Shown piece by piece: positions 3,744 through 33,864 of a stretch of DNA of 39,086 nucleotides. The translations under genes were made by a program, and so were the position numbers. Position 1 is the stretch's first letter, and each line of letters starts with the position of its first letter. Source of the stretch: an uncultured Saprospirales bacterium (GTDB taxonomy: Bacteria; Bacteroidota; Bacteroidia; Chitinophagales; Saprospiraceae); contig CAJXUU010000010.1 of NCBI GenBank assembly GCA_913061325.1, positions 1 through 39,086 of the forward strand, read 5' to 3'. A model generated the notes under the pieces. That model made no database searches. It was not told where the DNA came from and was given only the letters and a program-made list of their open reading frames with translations.

Positions 3744-4970
3744 TTAGAATCTTGTATTTACAACATTATTAGATGCTGATCCGAACCTATACCTCATTCC
3801 AAAAAACATATACATAGAGAAATTACTATCTCGAAGTTTGTTATTTAGGAGAACATCTTCTACTGAAAGATCGCCTTTTGGAATATTGATTCTATCTTTT
3901 GTGATGCCATAAAAGATTCCTGTGTAAAAGTTGAAGCCTTTAAATAAATTGACATCCACACTAGGGCTGATATCAATACTATATCTATCTGGTCTTGTAA
4001 TAAATTGACTTACACCAGCATCAAAATCAATATTCCCCCATGGTTTCACTATCCGATAGTCGATCGATAATCTATGTCTTGTCAACAATTCTGTAGATTT
4101 AAAATAAGAAGTAGTATCTATATAATCATTGTACCTAGCTCCAATTTCATACCTAAAAGTAAAGTTATGATCCGCCACTTCAGAATATGGAAATATATTA
4201 AACTCTATAGCCGGAGAAACAGTAATACTGTGATCGTAGTTTTCAAATATGCTTCTTGTATATCTTAAGATCCCACCAGCTGACCAGTGTTCATCTAGAC
4301 TCTTTACATAAAGCATATTTCCATAGAATGAATTCTGTAGATTAGAAATAGTTTCCTCTTCATCACCTTCGCCTATTATAAAATTACTTTCATTTCTATT
4401 GTAGTTTATTCTTGCAAAGAACTTATGATCTTCTATCGTTCTATTAGCACTTATATTAAATCTTAGATTTTGAGAATTAAATTGCGATTCTCTATTTATG
4501 TTACCATTAACACCCAAAGAAAAAACCCAATCATTCCATGGATCTACTGAAATCATATCTTCAGTAGATTCATTTTTTTGAGATACGGAATAATTTATAT
4601 CTCCTGCCTGTCCTTCATCTACCATATACTTGAGAAGAGCTAGTTTAAGGTGTTTCACTATTTCTATTCTCCTATCATCTTCTACTGCGTTTGCATCAGT
4701 GAAAAATTTCAATTCATAAGACTCCTCTTCTGATTTTTTATTCTCGATAGTCATGGTGTATTCTCTTCCACCGCTACCTGTTCTTTGGTTTATTAAAAGC
4801 ATGTATAATTCTGAAGATTGACGATCCAACATAAAATCCACAAAATCAATCTCAGATTTTATATAAGTCATATCACAATAAGTCCTACAATCAAGAAAAA
4901 GTTTTGGCCTTTCTTGGGCTGATAATAAAACAGTAACAAACAGGAAAATAATCGTATTGATATATTTCAT
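3744..4970 (-). CDS. Predicted outer-membrane beta-barrel protein, uncharacterised
   Basis: A 408-residue protein with a Sec signal peptide (about 1-18, ending SAQ). An N-terminal conserved block (about 20-70: LFLDCRTYCDMTYIKSEIDFVDF, DRQ, RTGSGGREYTM) has two nearby cysteines. From about residue 150 to the end it shows alternating polar and aromatic strands typical of an outer-membrane barrel, ending in Phe. The N-terminal block resembles a conserved but unnamed Bacteroidota family I recall from memory. I cannot assign a function or ligand. It lies 114 nt downstream of the metalloprotease gene on the same strand, so cotranscription is possible. Confidence 0.7.
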   Translation of the reverse strand: MKYINTIIFLFVTVLLSAQERPKLFLDCRTYCDMTYIKSEIDFVDFMLDRQSSELYMLLINQRTGSGGREYTMTIENKKSEEESYELKFFTDANAVEDDRRIEIVKHLKLALLKYMVDEGQAGDINYSVSQKNESTEDMISVDPWNDWVFSLGVNGNINRESQFNSQNLRFNISANRTIEDHKFFARINYNRNESNFIIGEGDEEETISNLQNSFYGNMLYVKSLDEHWSAGGILRYTRSIFENYDHSITVSPAIEFNIFPYSEVADHNFTFRYEIGARYNDYIDTTSYFKSTELLTRHRLSIDYRIVKPWGNIDFDAGVSQFITRPDRYSIDISPSVDVNLFKGFNFYTGIFYGITKDRINIPKGDLSVEDVLLNNKLRDSNFSMYMFFGMRYRFGSASNNVVNTRF

Positions 4971-5084
4971 GAGGATTAGTTTAGTAGTTATTCTAATTAG
5001 GATTTGATCCTTGGTGAAACTAAAAAGAATAAGCTATCCAAAAACTAAATTTGTGTTAACGAGTGTAAAAGTGTGCTTCAACAC

Positions 5085-7460
5085 CTATTTACCACATCCA
5101 ATTGGACTCCCTGGAGGCATATCAGCCAACCCAGGTAATGTTAACATCTCTGGATCATTCATTTGATCTATCATGACATTGAGATACATGTTATTAGCCT
5201 TTATATTAGCATTACTGCTTAATTTATCAAGATAACTAGATTGAATCTGCTTCAGAAGCATTAATGCCATTGCTGATACCTGCTTGTTGATTTTTTTATT
5301 TTTTGCCAACTTTAATAGGTGAATTATGAGCACTTTTCTTGGGATGAGGGATAGTTGTGTTTCATATCCTTGTTTTGCGCCAGCATTGGTAAACACTCTT
5401 GAAGCTATAGCTGATAGGTACTCTACTAACGAAATTTCTTCTTGCAAATTAATTCTTGCTAATCGATCTGGATGTAGCATGACTGTCAACACAAAGTTAG
5501 TGTACGCCTCTGCTCCATTCAACGGATCAAAAACCATATTCATATCAGAATCAAATGATTCTCGATTTCTCCCAAAACCTTTTGCAGAGGGTAAAATCTT
5601 ATTCAATGCAGATTGTGGAAAAGATAATTCTTGATACGACAATGTATTAAGAAGTTCCTGTGTAGCCTTATATTGTACAGCGGTAGATATCGGCGTATTT
5701 ATCGGTTCTTCGAACCCTTTGACAGCATAGTTATAATCTACACCACCTATTATCTTGGCAACTCCTTCAGCTTGGTATCTATGCATTAGGTAGGCTGGAA
5801 CTAATACTTTTTCTAATTCCGAATATGGAGTTCCATCTGAAATTGAATTTTCCCCAAATTTATCCAATGTGCTTTTCCTTAGAATCATCAATCGTTTTAA
5901 TTCCTCTATTGGATCATTACCATTGTCCCATAAGTGAGCTTTTGGATGTGCTCCTCCCATGGGTCTAGCATCAGAATCTGACATGTACAATAAACCTAGT
6001 TCTTTTGTTTCTTTTAGAATGCTGTGCAATCCATTTTCATTTTCTTTTCTATCATTGAATTCTGTGTACCCATAGGTAATTGTTCGTTTATCCCATATTC
6101 CAATCTTATCATCGTATGCATCTGATAGGTCTATCTGTCCGCCATTTTCCTTGATCAACGGATGTGGATAATCCATTACTGAAGCTCTATCGTTACAACT
6201 TGCAGCAAAATTATGTGCTAGACCTATTGTATGACCTACTTCATGGGCTGATAATTGACGTAATCTTGCCAGTGCCATTTCAGTCATTCTCGTATAATTA
6301 TTCGCATCGGCATAAGGAGAAAGAATTCCTTGTGCAATCATGAAATCCTGCCTTACTCTTAATGAACCTAGAGAAACATGCCCTTTAATTATTTCCCCTG
6401 TTCTTGGATCAACAACGGATGCTCCATATGACCAACCTCTCGTGCTTCGATGTACCCATTGAATCACATTGTATCTTACATCAAGTGGATGTGCATCAGC
6501 AGGTAATTCTTTGACTTGAAATGCATTAATAAAACCAGCCTCTATATAAGCTTGATTCCACCAAGATGCTCCTTCTATCAAAGCCGATTTAATAGGTTCT
6601 GGACAGCCAGCATCCACATAATAGACGATTGGTTCTACTGCTTCAGATGCTGCTGTTCCAGAATTTTTCTTTTCTAATCTGTGCCGAGTTATATACCGCT
6701 TTGCCATTGGCTCATGAATCGCTGTGGCATAGTCGTAATATAATATATTATTGAATCCAGAATAAGGATGAAATGCGCGTGGAGTGTAATTATCATCAGG
6801 CAGTGCAATAAAAGATTGGTGTTGCACTATTGTCACAGCATCACTGGACGGTGTTACTGTTCGTAAATATTTACCTGTAGCCTCTCCTCCAAAAGTCAAA
6901 ATCGATTCGAATTCTGTATTCTTTGGAAATGAGTGCAATCCTTCTTTTCGTACAACAGATCTCTTTTTATCCAACTTGTAGGTTCCTTCTTTTCTATCTT
7001 TTAACAATCGAGTAATCTTGTTTGCATCTTGAAGTAAGAAAGGTGTGAGATCAATAGTAATATAAGAACCTGTTTTTTTAACGATATCAAAACCAAATAA
7101 AACCGAACTGGCGAACGCCTCTCGAACAGCTGCTTTCTCTTTTTCATTATTGCTTTCAGCACGATATTTCATATTTGGTTGTTGGAGCAAAAGCTTGTTC
7201 CCTTGCTTCACGAATTTTACTATCCTAGTATTGTGAATTTTTCCTCTATCAAGTCCTAGATCATTCGATCCGACTCCCCCTGCAATAGCATTCATATACA
7301 AGAACTCTTTATCAAGTTCCGTAACGGTAAGGCTTACTGTTCCTTTTTCTTCATCGTATTTGTATTCAAAAAAAGGTGTCTTATCAGATTCGTTTTGTGC
7401 AAACAATAATGCCGGAACTAAGAACAACATCAATATCGAGTAGCTAGCTATAATTTTCAT
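5085..7460 (-). CDS. Zinc-dependent metalloprotease, DUF5117/DUF4953 type
   Basis: A 791-residue secreted or periplasmic protein with a signal peptide (about 1-21, ending LFAQ). The N-terminal part has the DUF5117-like sequence EFLYMNAIAGGVGSNDLGLDRG (about 52-73). The catalytic zinc site is HEVGHTIGLAHNF (His406, Glu407, His410, His416), followed by a Met-turn-like SVMDYP (428-433). The rest resembles the DUF4953 region. This metzincin-like family is frequent in Bacteroidota and is usually annotated only as a zinc-dependent metalloprotease with unknown substrate. I see no T9SS C-terminal domain; the protein ends GSPIGCGK. It reads toward the barrel gene downstream. Family assignment is from memory of conserved blocks. 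Confidence 0.88.
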   Translation of the reverse strand: MKIIASYSILMLFLVPALLFAQNESDKTPFFEYKYDEEKGTVSLTVTELDKEFLYMNAIAGGVGSNDLGLDRGKIHNTRIVKFVKQGNKLLLQQPNMKYRAESNNEKEKAAVREAFASSVLFGFDIVKKTGSYITIDLTPFLLQDANKITRLLKDRKEGTYKLDKKRSVVRKEGLHSFPKNTEFESILTFGGEATGKYLRTVTPSSDAVTIVQHQSFIALPDDNYTPRAFHPYSGFNNILYYDYATAIHEPMAKRYITRHRLEKKNSGTAASEAVEPIVYYVDAGCPEPIKSALIEGASWWNQAYIEAGFINAFQVKELPADAHPLDVRYNVIQWVHRSTRGWSYGASVVDPRTGEIIKGHVSLGSLRVRQDFMIAQGILSPYADANNYTRMTEMALARLRQLSAHEVGHTIGLAHNFAASCNDRASVMDYPHPLIKENGGQIDLSDAYDDKIGIWDKRTITYGYTEFNDRKENENGLHSILKETKELGLLYMSDSDARPMGGAHPKAHLWDNGNDPIEELKRLMILRKSTLDKFGENSISDGTPYSELEKVLVPAYLMHRYQAEGVAKIIGGVDYNYAVKGFEEPINTPISTAVQYKATQELLNTLSYQELSFPQSALNKILPSAKGFGRNRESFDSDMNMVFDPLNGAEAYTNFVLTVMLHPDRLARINLQEEISLVEYLSAIASRVFTNAGAKQGYETQLSLIPRKVLIIHLLKLAKNKKINKQVSAMALMLLKQIQSSYLDKLSSNANIKANNMYLNVMIDQMNDPEMLTLPGLADMPPGSPIGCGK

Positions 7461-7688: not shown

Positions 7689-8375
7689 ATGAAACAGCTT
7701 TTTCTATCTATCATTTCAATTTCTATATTATTCTCTTCTTGCAAAACCTTAGGAGAATTGGGATTAAAACCATCAAGCTTAGAAACTGTGATGGCCCTCA
7801 AAAATATCCTCGACAGCAGTACATTCAAAGCGATAAAAAAACTTAAAAATATCAATGAGGTTGGTCTTGAAAATACACTACCTAGTGAGGTTGGGACAGT
7901 TCTAAAAACACTAAAAACGGTAGGTTACGGTGACGAAGTAGAGAAAATGACAAAATCTATAGGTCAAGCATCTACATTGGTATTAGTGGAAAGTGAAGAA
8001 ATAATAGGCGATGCTATAAGTGAATTGAAATTTACTGACGCTGTAGCAGTAGTTCTTGGTGGTGAAGATGCGGCTACAAACGTACTTAAACGTGCTATTT
8101 ACAGTACCGTTAAAAAAAGATACAGTGCAAGACTCAGACAAGAACTAGATAAAACGGACGTAAATACATATTGGCCCATCGCAGCTGGAGCCTACAACAT
8201 TTTTGCAAAAAACAAAATGGAAGGAACTCTATCTGATTTCTTAGCCAAAAGAGCAGTTGATGGACTCTTTTTAGCTATTGGAAAAGAAGAAGCCAAAGCA
8301 AGAACAGACTACAAAGCCATAGGCAATACCGTTGTCACTAAAGTATTTGATTACTATTCTAAAAATAAATCCTAG
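7689..8375 (+). CDS. DUF4197 family lipoprotein
   Basis: A 228-residue predicted lipoprotein with lipobox SILFSSC (Cys18). The mature part is helical and matches the DUF4197 pattern: SIGQASTLVLVESEEI, then ISELKFTDAVAVVLGGEDAATNVLKRA, LRQELDKTDV, and a C-terminal AVDGLFLAIGKEEAKAR. The biochemical role of DUF4197 is unknown. The gene is divergent from the metalloprotease (228-nt gap) and convergent with the next protease gene (14-nt gap), so it is probably a single-gene unit. I found no exact Bacteroidota -7 box directly upstream. Confidence 0.87.
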   Translation: MKQLFLSIISISILFSSCKTLGELGLKPSSLETVMALKNILDSSTFKAIKKLKNINEVGLENTLPSEVGTVLKTLKTVGYGDEVEKMTKSIGQASTLVLVESEEIIGDAISELKFTDAVAVVLGGEDAATNVLKRAIYSTVKKRYSARLRQELDKTDVNTYWPIAAGAYNIFAKNKMEGTLSDFLAKRAVDGLFLAIGKEEAKARTDYKAIGNTVVTKVFDYYSKNKS

Positions 8376-27193: not shown

Positions 27194-28162
27194 TCAACCT
27201 TCAAAAACATGTTCTTCGATATCATCAATCTTTGATAATTCTAGTATTGTCATAGATTCTTTGTTTCTATACATTGTCTTAAACCTAGCACCATCGACCA
27301 GATCAGAACAGCTATATGATCTCTTACTGTGTATTACTTGAGTATAAGTATCGTCAAAACCTTTGATTAGAACCAAAACCTCTAATTGATTATCTATAAG
27401 TTTTTGCAATGATTTACCATATAATGGGCTGTCTCTATCTATATTATGAACTATAGTCCAATTGAGTGGAAAAAGATGGATACTCTCGAACTCTAAATCG
27501 AGACGTTTAAATTTTCTTCTCATTTGTCCATCTACTTCTTGCAGCCAAGCTAACGTAACTCTTGCATGCAAGTCTATTATTTGATTACTCGTAGCGTTTA
27601 CAATTCTGAATTGGAGTGATCTAATATTATTATTATTTACATTAGGAGCAATTAGCATTTTATTACTAAATAGAATATGAGCCTTTGGTTTTGAAAACTT
27701 GGCAAAGGATAAACCTGTCAAGATTGCAAACGAAATAAGCCCTACAAAAGCAACAAAAGCAGATATCAAATTAGCCGCATTGCCTTGAGGGCTCAAATGT
27801 CCGAAACCTACAGTGGTAAAAGTCTGAATACTAAAATAGATCATCTGTGTGTACATCTCCACCCAAGTACCTTCTTGAACTCCTCTGACATTCTCTGGTC
27901 CAATAGCCATAAAAACTAACCCAAAAACGCAATTGAAAAGAAAATAGATCACTAAAAAACTAACGATAATCTTAGTCCAAGACATAGTTAATACTGCCTC
28001 ATACATGTTAGCCCCAGATTTCCCTCGGCGATCAATATTGAACGTCCCATCAGGATTGATCAATCTAAAATTATCACTATTGTTTGGGGCATTGAAGATC
28101 AAATTATCGGATTCTACAATCTCCGTCTCGTCATAACTATATTTATGTGATTTCTGGTCCAA
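27194..28162 (-). CDS. Inward-rectifier (KirBac-type) potassium channel
   Basis: A 322-residue membrane protein with two transmembrane helices (about 64-86 and 131-155) around a pore loop carrying the selectivity filter TTVGFG (Thr116-Gly121). A slide-helix region precedes TM1 (GKSGANMYEAVLTMSWTK). The C-terminal cytoplasmic beta-sandwich (about 160-310: LQFRIVNATSNQIIDLHARVTLAW, FPLNWTIVHNIDRDSPLYG, IKGFDDTYTQVIHSKRSY) is typical of Kir channels. It conducts potassium across the inner membrane. It lies just upstream of the ECF sigma gene on the same strand. Confidence 0.93.
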   Translation of the reverse strand: MDQKSHKYSYDETEIVESDNLIFNAPNNSDNFRLINPDGTFNIDRRGKSGANMYEAVLTMSWTKIIVSFLVIYFLFNCVFGLVFMAIGPENVRGVQEGTWVEMYTQMIYFSIQTFTTVGFGHLSPQGNAANLISAFVAFVGLISFAILTGLSFAKFSKPKAHILFSNKMLIAPNVNNNNIRSLQFRIVNATSNQIIDLHARVTLAWLQEVDGQMRRKFKRLDLEFESIHLFPLNWTIVHNIDRDSPLYGKSLQKLIDNQLEVLVLIKGFDDTYTQVIHSKRSYSCSDLVDGARFKTMYRNKESMTILELSKIDDIEEHVFEG

Positions 28163-28353: not shown

Positions 28354-28752
28354 ATGGGGATAAAGTCAAAATTGATAATGCCTGTTGCAAAATGGACGGC
28401 TCATCATATAAAAAAGTGGTCTGCAAGAGCTGTAGAAGATCAAGACAAGATCATGATTCCAGCAGACGGAAGCACTCCTTACCATGAATGGTTTGTAGAA
28501 TTTGTAGACGGCCCTAAAGACATGGTAGCATTTTCAACTTCCGCAGACCTTGAAATGGTGAAACAAAACATCTACTACGAAGATTTAATAAAAGGAAACA
28601 TCCTCCAGCATTTAAAAATAAACAAAATGAAATCTGGGGCATTCCGATCATATATGAAAGATCAAGGAAAACTTGGAGGACAAAATAAGGTTCCTCATCT
28701 CAGTAATGATAGGAAGATTGCAGATCAACTCAACAAATATATTGACAAGTGA
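28354..28752 (+). CDS. GH3-like mini-protein: N- and C-terminal ends of a GH3 enzyme joined, middle absent
   Basis: A 132-residue intact frame. Residues 1-34 (MGIKSKLIMPVAKWTAHHIK, AVEDQDKI) look like the N-terminal helix of bacterial GH3-family (auxin-responsive-promoter type) acyl-adenylating proteins. Residues from about 42 (YHEWFVEFVDGPKDM) to the end (GAFRSYMKDQGKLGGQNKVPHLSNDRKIADQL) look like the extreme C-terminus of the same family. The usual protein is roughly 500 residues, so the adenylation core with its ATP and substrate motifs is missing, and the reading frame is preserved. Activity as a ligase is therefore not expected. It may be a deletion relic or a repurposed domain. It is translationally coupled to the glycosyltransferase gene downstream. 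The family match is from memory of conserved blocks. Confidence 0.72.
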   Translation: MGIKSKLIMPVAKWTAHHIKKWSARAVEDQDKIMIPADGSTPYHEWFVEFVDGPKDMVAFSTSADLEMVKQNIYYEDLIKGNILQHLKINKMKSGAFRSYMKDQGKLGGQNKVPHLSNDRKIADQLNKYIDK

Positions 28753-30092
28753 TCAATTCGTCTATTGACAATAAAAATAATACTATATATTCAACAATAA
28801 GTGCAGTAGTACTTTTAGTCGCTACATTCTACATTGCATTTGTACCTACACAGTCTGATTTTTTTGATATTATTATTGCCGGTGGAATAGCATTTGCTGG
28901 GTATGGCTATCTGTCTTTCTTTTCTAATACAAAGGCTCGTCAAATCTTTGGGCTAGGAATGATAATTAGATTTGGGATGCTTTTCGCCTTTCCCAACCTA
29001 AGTGATGATATATATCGATTTGTTTGGGATGGGCAGCTATCAGCATATGGCCTGAATCCCTATGAGTATTTACCTTCGGATATAATTTCAAATATGGATA
29101 GTCCTTTTTGGCAAGAACTATTTACCAATATGAATAGTCCTGATTATTATACGATATATCCTCCATTTACTCAACTCATTTTTTTCATTTCTACTTGGGC
29201 TGGAGAGAATGTTTGGTGGAGTAGCTTTATCATCAAGGTCTGTTTTTTAATCGCGGAGATTTTTACTTTTATTGGTATTGTTCGTCTACTTGAAAGTCTT
29301 AAAAAGAATACCTCACTTGCTGCAATTTATTTTCTCAATCCATTAATAATAGTTGAGGGAATGGGCAATCTTCATTTCGAAATAATCATGGTTTCGTTTT
29401 TGACTTGGGCGATTTATTATACTCTGATCAAAGAGAAAATAGCAGTCGGTGCATTACTTTTCACACTTTCTATTGCTAGTAAGTTATTGCCGTTGATGTT
29501 TTTACCCTACTTTCTATTTAAGCTTTCTGGCACGAAAAGGATCAAGTTCTTTGCTTTAGGGTTGACATTTATATTATTCGCATTCTTACCTATTATTATT
29601 GGTCTCGACATTGGCAACTTTGGTTCAAGCATCGATTTATATTTTCAAAAGTTTGAATTCAATGCTGGCATCTATTATCTGATGAGGTATATAGGTCAGC
29701 TTTGGTCAGGTTATAACTTGATACATTACATAGGCCCATTATTAGGCACATTTGCTGTGTTATTGATACTCAGAAAAGCGTATTTCTCATCCACTAATTC
29801 ACTTCAACAGTTTTTAGATTTTGCATTCTTTAGCTTTTGTTCATATCTACTATTAGCTACTACAGTACACCCTTGGTACTTGGTTATTCCAATAATGCTA
29901 AGTGTTTTTGTAAGATTTCGATTCGTTGTTACTTGGTCTTTTTTAATCATGCTATCATATATTAATTATAGCTATGATCCATATTTTGAGAATTTATGGG
30001 TAGTGGGGTTAGAATATGGATTGGTGTTTGGGATAATAGGGTATGAATATATTTGGAATGGTAAAAGAAAAGAAAGGGTAAAGGAATTTTAG
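28749..30092 (+). CDS. GT-C fold glycosyltransferase, polyprenol-phosphate mannosyltransferase-like
   Basis: A 447-residue integral membrane protein with about 11-13 transmembrane helices. The first external loop has the acidic motif LSDDIYRFVWDGQLSAYGLNPYEY (Asp85-Asp86 region), followed by a YYTIYPPFTQLIFF segment, as in GT-C lipid-linked sugar transferases and DUF2029/GT87-like proteins. Donor and acceptor are unknown. It probably adds a sugar to a lipid or surface glycan on the outer face of the inner membrane. It starts with GTG overlapping the TGA of the GH3-like gene (GTGA), so it depends on translation of that mini-gene. The next in-frame ATG is far inside. Confidence 0.8.
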   Translation: MINSSIDNKNNTIYSTISAVVLLVATFYIAFVPTQSDFFDIIIAGGIAFAGYGYLSFFSNTKARQIFGLGMIIRFGMLFAFPNLSDDIYRFVWDGQLSAYGLNPYEYLPSDIISNMDSPFWQELFTNMNSPDYYTIYPPFTQLIFFISTWAGENVWWSSFIIKVCFLIAEIFTFIGIVRLLESLKKNTSLAAIYFLNPLIIVEGMGNLHFEIIMVSFLTWAIYYTLIKEKIAVGALLFTLSIASKLLPLMFLPYFLFKLSGTKRIKFFALGLTFILFAFLPIIIGLDIGNFGSSIDLYFQKFEFNAGIYYLMRYIGQLWSGYNLIHYIGPLLGTFAVLLILRKAYFSSTNSLQQFLDFAFFSFCSYLLLATTVHPWYLVIPIMLSVFVRFRFVVTWSFLIMLSYINYSYDPYFENLWVVGLEYGLVFGIIGYEYIWNGKRKERVKEF

Positions 30093-33770: not shown

Positions 33771-33864
33771 ATTGTTTTTATAGAATGAGTTACTCTAGTT
33801 TAAAACTACAATTTAAAAAAGGTTGAATATTATATTTAAGTCCATAAAAATTCTAACGACAAAA

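Follow-up and report, generated by a model that had tools for sequence, protein, structure and literature searches.

An open reading frame of 132 aa at positions 28354-28752 (+ strand, stop codon TGA at 28750-28752) is probably the very young loss-of-function product of one in-frame deletion in a GH3 gene of a Saprospiraceae genome. It lies in a window of 39,086 nucleotides, which is the whole stretch of DNA analysed (contig CAJXUU010000010.1 of assembly GCA_913061325.1). The ancestor that this genome shares with its two closest relatives would have possessed a full-length GH3 gene in tight overlap with a mannosyltransferase-like gene. In the lineage of the remnant a single deletion would then have taken out 1104 bp. 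Since 1104 is divisible by three, the deletion leaves the reading frame intact, together with the stop codon and its overlap with the start of the next gene, and ribosomes should still reach that gene. Judged from its sequence, the amido synthetase activity of the product should be lost. The initial annotation had described the frame as an in-frame GH3 deletion derivative, and the coordinates, the matches of both ends and the collinear alignment agree with this.

The nearest relatives are two uncultured Saprospiraceae MAGs, G002 (locus L035, contig CALKXE010000087.1) and G001 (locus L036, contig CALLMH010000036.1). Both carry an intact GH3 gene of 499/500 aa when counted from the matching start; an upstream ATG in L035 would give a GH3 protein of 526 aa. 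In both, the intact gene is flanked by the same genes as the remnant, i.e., an ion-channel-like gene (27194-28162, - strand, function judged by eye) and the mannosyltransferase-like gene. The channel gene serves as a syntenic anchor in three congeners: in the third, G003, it again adjoins an intact GH3 gene. In the 14 kb of G003 that were examined the mannosyltransferase-like gene was not seen. Upstream of the GH3 gene the alignment is poor except close to the start codon. A promoter scan of about 220-240 bases upstream on the gene's strand, using a pattern of the Bacteroidota type, returned no promoter in the window or in the three congeners.

The nucleotide alignment of the remnant with L035 is collinear to either side of a single gap, whose length is exactly 1104 bp (368 codons). 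At the junction, 28457|28458, base 4895 of L035 abuts base 6000, i.e., bases 4896-5999 of the congener gene are absent; the comparison with L036 gives an equal result. The kept 5' part (28354-28457, + strand) comprises ancestral codons 1-34, the region of the N-terminal helix, and the first two bases of codon 35. The kept 3' part (28458-28752, + strand) begins with the third base of ancestral codon 403 and continues from codon 404 to the end, covering most of the GH3_C domain. Codon 35 of the remnant is thus a hybrid of ancestral codons 35 and 403. About 74% of the open reading frame is lost. The junction had been placed near 28456 beforehand, which is correct to within two bases. Across the 10 kb of alignment surrounding the junction, no other large gap falls within a gene; a second large difference is intergenic.

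The breakpoints carry no sign of a repeat. When G001 and G002 are taken in place of the lost sequence, the breakpoints show 0 in-register identical bases. Within 40 bases on either side of the junction the longest shared word has 7 bases for G002 and 6 for G001, lengths reached by 37% and 84% of the control pairs, respectively. A repeat-mediated deletion was therefore rejected. The lack of a breakpoint repeat speaks equally against slippage between repeats and against a repeat-driven collapse in assembly.

At this locus the two ends of the remnant share a single GH3 gene as their orthologue, which identifies it as a descendant of GH3. The 5' part shares 83% amino acid identity with residues 1-35 of the G002 protein and the 3' part 86% with residues 404-499. 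Searched as separate segments, residues 1-36 and 35-131 match one and the same GH3 frame in each congener, at 81% and 86% in G002 (contig C87, a 533-codon open frame), 75% and 82% in G001, and 66% and 74% in G003. The N-terminal match of the initial annotation holds; the C-terminal match starts at residue 36 and not at residue 42.

In Pfam the remnant matches GH3_C (PF23572) at residues 38-121 with 4.4e-13, spanning profile positions 30-119 of 119. The GH3 N-terminal and central domains (PF03321 and PF23571) are absent from the remnant, and the intact congener protein carries all three. Six motifs were picked from the alignment, nucleotide-binding motifs among them. Five core motifs of the G002 protein, TSGTTSG, YPASEGF, WGYxxGD, SGIPPW and FGEHVIGKEV, are missing, and only the C-terminal GKLGGQNK is kept. 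Without the complete three-domain set and the five core motifs, the product should have no amido synthetase activity. A sequence comparison with the PDB returned no chain at E up to 1.

The genome of the remnant keeps two full-length GH3 paralogues, which share 50% and 34% identity with the lost gene. Used as queries, neither PF03321 nor the intact orthologue (E up to 10) located the missing core elsewhere in the assembly. A relocated or split GH3 gene was rejected for this reason. Matches were obtained in 59 of 60 genomes (the genome of the remnant and 59 relatives), and in 313 of 398 genomes of the family at 1e-20. Among the matches listed for both sets only the remnant itself spans residues 1-132 in one stretch. 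Twelve of the rows with short frames were opened; the matches listed include others with frames of about 64-485 codons. Eleven of the twelve reach a contig end or stop no more than 25 bases short of it. The remaining one, in G358, is a near full-length gene with an internal stop. The rows opened are thus contig-end cuts or a near full-length gene with a stop, and gave no family of other short forms.

Is the remnant decaying? In 130 codons shared by the three genomes the remnant has 6 private amino acid changes, G002 has 6 and G001 has 11; another 6 positions differ three ways. Conservation across 45 orthologues reaches 95% or more at 35 positions, and the remnant departs at one of them. Among the 45 intact orthologues 16 depart at one to three of these positions and 29, the three congeners included, at none. 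The 45 were retained from 56 loci after removal of duplicates (L006, L007, L040, and L038, a copy of L010) and of loci with <53% identity or <480 aligned residues (L001-L005, L047, L056). The lone departure, R483H, was considered as a mark of decay and rejected: many intact orthologues depart likewise and L021 has the same change. A His at position 454 was also dismissed as a sign of decay, as the three congeners have Pro, Ser and Thr there.

A codon model yields the same picture. Omega is 0.051 on the remnant branch compared with 0.019 on the rest, a difference that is not significant (2dlnL 1.09). The same test on the six neighbouring genes gave 2dlnL values of 0.11-1.20, none significant. 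The initial annotation had called for a dN/dS below 1. An omega of about 0.05 bears this out; as proof of function it fails, because under a recent loss almost the whole branch is older than the deletion and a low omega fits such a loss equally well. Extra change from a loss of purifying selection was not seen in the remnant, and would be expected only if time has passed. The small amount of change implies that the deletion is very recent, or that the segments are still constrained, or that the deletion is not in the population.

Neutral drift was modelled over the last fraction of the remnant branch with three taxa and with branch lengths shared by the six neighbouring genes. The likelihood drops by 1.84 at a fraction of 0.02, by 3.34 at 0.03 and by 6.90 at 0.05. 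If the remnant drifted neutrally, the deletion would fall in roughly the last 2% of the branch. This bound is rough because synonymous sites are near saturation, each branch having about 3-6 neutral changes per codon.

The downstream partner is an intact membrane mannosyltransferase-like gene of 447 aa (28749-30092, + strand), with matches to GT87, TIGR03459 and MptB which are all below the cut-offs. Its GTG start overlaps the stop codon of the remnant in a GTGA at 28749-28752 (+ strand). The same kind of overlap prevails in both congeners, where the stop of the intact GH3 gene overlaps the GTG of the transferase, as TAGTG in one and as GTGA in the other. The overlap occurs with a full-length GH3 gene in two congeners; it would thus be ancestral and was kept, not created, by the deletion. 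A translated leader had been suggested from the GTGA. The overlap is indeed present; a purpose-made leader does not follow from it, as the full-length congener genes possess the overlap too. Thanks to the inherited coupling, the deletion should not harm the next gene, and an in-frame deletion at such an overlap is likely non-polar. Omega of the transferase on the branch of the remnant genome is 0.075 compared with 0.047, not significantly raised (2dlnL 1.12), and the gene is still under constraint. In-frame deletions within translationally coupled operons offer a system for comparison. They likewise keep the stop/start overlap of the next gene, and by analogy downstream translation should continue here. 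Those deletions are engineered, whereas the remnant is natural and its coupling is predicted from sequence.

In an AlphaFold2 model of the remnant (mean pLDDT 74.5, pTM 0.53) a long helix is connected to an incomplete C-terminal domain that contains two strands. Residues 41-110 reach block means of 74-87 pLDDT, and some of the C-terminal domain may retain its fold according to the model. In the model of the full-length protein the first helix (376-388) and the first strand (393-402) of this domain fall in the lost part; that model is itself moderate (pLDDT 75.7) and the confidence of its C-terminal domain is no better. Foldseek returned no match for the remnant model at E 0.001 or better; ranks 1, 3 and 8 are GH3 structures with E of 0.13, 0.34 and 1.0. 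An inactive, probably unstable fragment fits best. Neither a selected leader nor the new binding role which the initial annotation had envisaged receives positive support. As regards the binding role, among the matches listed the short form is seen in one genome only, the model is of middling quality, and the first helix and strand of the domain are missing.

The lack of decay fits equally well continued constraint, an assembly variant or a strain variant, and these readings have to be weighed. It is conceivable, if rather unlikely, that the deletion is a product of assembly, or that a metagenome bin has picked up a variant of a minority strain, while the gene of the population is intact. Such a variant would have no decay. 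Further, the assembly consists of 555 contigs and is 94.8% complete, the short form occurs in this single assembly, and the two nearest relatives are MAGs, as the assembly of the remnant may be too. When assemblers connect distant stretches they usually do so at a repeat common to both, yet the junction has no in-register identical bases and its shared words stay within the control. The gap is exactly in frame, which happens by chance in one case of three, and an orphan core fragment was not found in the assembly. These observations argue for a deletion in the living genome and not just in its assembly.

Selection might instead keep the short protein, which could be a translated leader that brings ribosomes to the start of the transferase or could have taken on a new binding role; we consider this improbable. 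The retained frame and GTGA overlap, the omega of about 0.05, the conserved C-terminal residues still in place and a modelled segment (residues 41-110) which may partly fold are all compatible with such a protein. Against these stands the ancestral overlap, which occurs with the full-length gene as well. The short form appears in no other genome among the matches listed, and Foldseek gave no match at E 0.001 or better. A new role of any age should also relax the residues of the lost active site, yet those that are left resemble the intact enzyme. A more specific version of this idea, in which a selected mini-protein for example sets the level of the transferase as a leader, or binds or inhibits the two GH3 paralogues still present, is very unlikely.

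A very young loss by in-frame deletion remains the best explanation, and it resembles what has been described for young bacterial pseudogenes. Intact orthologues are present in synteny and the open reading frame is shortened by more than 20% (132 compared with 499/500 aa). In Salmonella, 346 of 378 pseudogenes possess a single inactivating mutation, and among these single-mutation cases deletions of 20% or less of the open reading frame predominate (141 of 346) (Kuo and Ochman, 2010; PMC2916853). The young Salmonella pseudogenes and the remnant share one inactivating event, conserved flanks and no built-up decay. Unlike the predominant Salmonella deletions reported there, the deletion presented here keeps the frame and removes about 74% of it. 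By analogy, the usual youth of bacterial pseudogenes fits the remnant.

The function of the lost gene may be approached through its family. OlsH, a bacterial GH3-like protein of the planctomycete Singulisphaera acidiphila, makes N-acyl ornithine (PMC12493201; NCBIfam NF052613). OlsH belongs to the bacterial GH3 acyl-acid amido synthetases, a family matched by the C-terminal part of the remnant and by the intact congener protein. In contrast to OlsH, the remnant is devoid of the N-terminal and central domains and of the core motifs searched. The equivalog cut-off of 620 bits in NCBIfam is not reached, neither by the remnant (51.9 bits) nor by the intact congener protein (412.2 bits). By its sequence the intact congener GH3 is a relative whose score lies below the cut-off, and ornithine lipid synthesis is therefore not to be assumed.

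The locus offers a clean case of an enzyme gene which appears to have been caught soon after inactivation through an in-frame deletion, an ordinary event but a cleanly documented one. With its open frame and its good Pfam match at the C-terminus, the remnant could be called a GH3-family protein by automatic annotation, and the pathway would be overcounted in this organism. If supported by reads, the deletion also suggests that a genome with two other GH3 paralogues can do without this one.

Some further observations concern the family and the neighbourhood. In L071 (G065, contig C61; 2-894) the C-terminal end of a GH3 gene at the start of the contig is followed by the start of another GH3 gene, i.e., a tandem. 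The gene with the internal stop in G358 (L067, contig C136; 208-1632) is a near full-length GH3 paralogue with one such stop, possibly a second GH3 pseudogene in the family. A transferase following GH3 was seen only in the remnant locus and in four loci of G001 and G002 among the 56 loci compared, many of the others having short flanks. The mannosyltransferase-like gene (28749-30092) may be a partner of GH3 within part of the genus, i.e., the remnant genome, G001 and G002. Between this gene and the next, L036 has an extra frame of 117 aa (7757-8110, - strand), by eye a helix-turn-helix regulator, for which the remnant genome and G002 have no room. The intergenic difference mentioned above sets 82 bases of the window (33780-33861) against 875 bases of L035 (11220-12094). 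The latter contain a frame of 238 aa that has no match in the remnant genome, L036 or L057. The compared stretch of G001 ends before this site, and the difference reflects either a loss here or a gain in G002.
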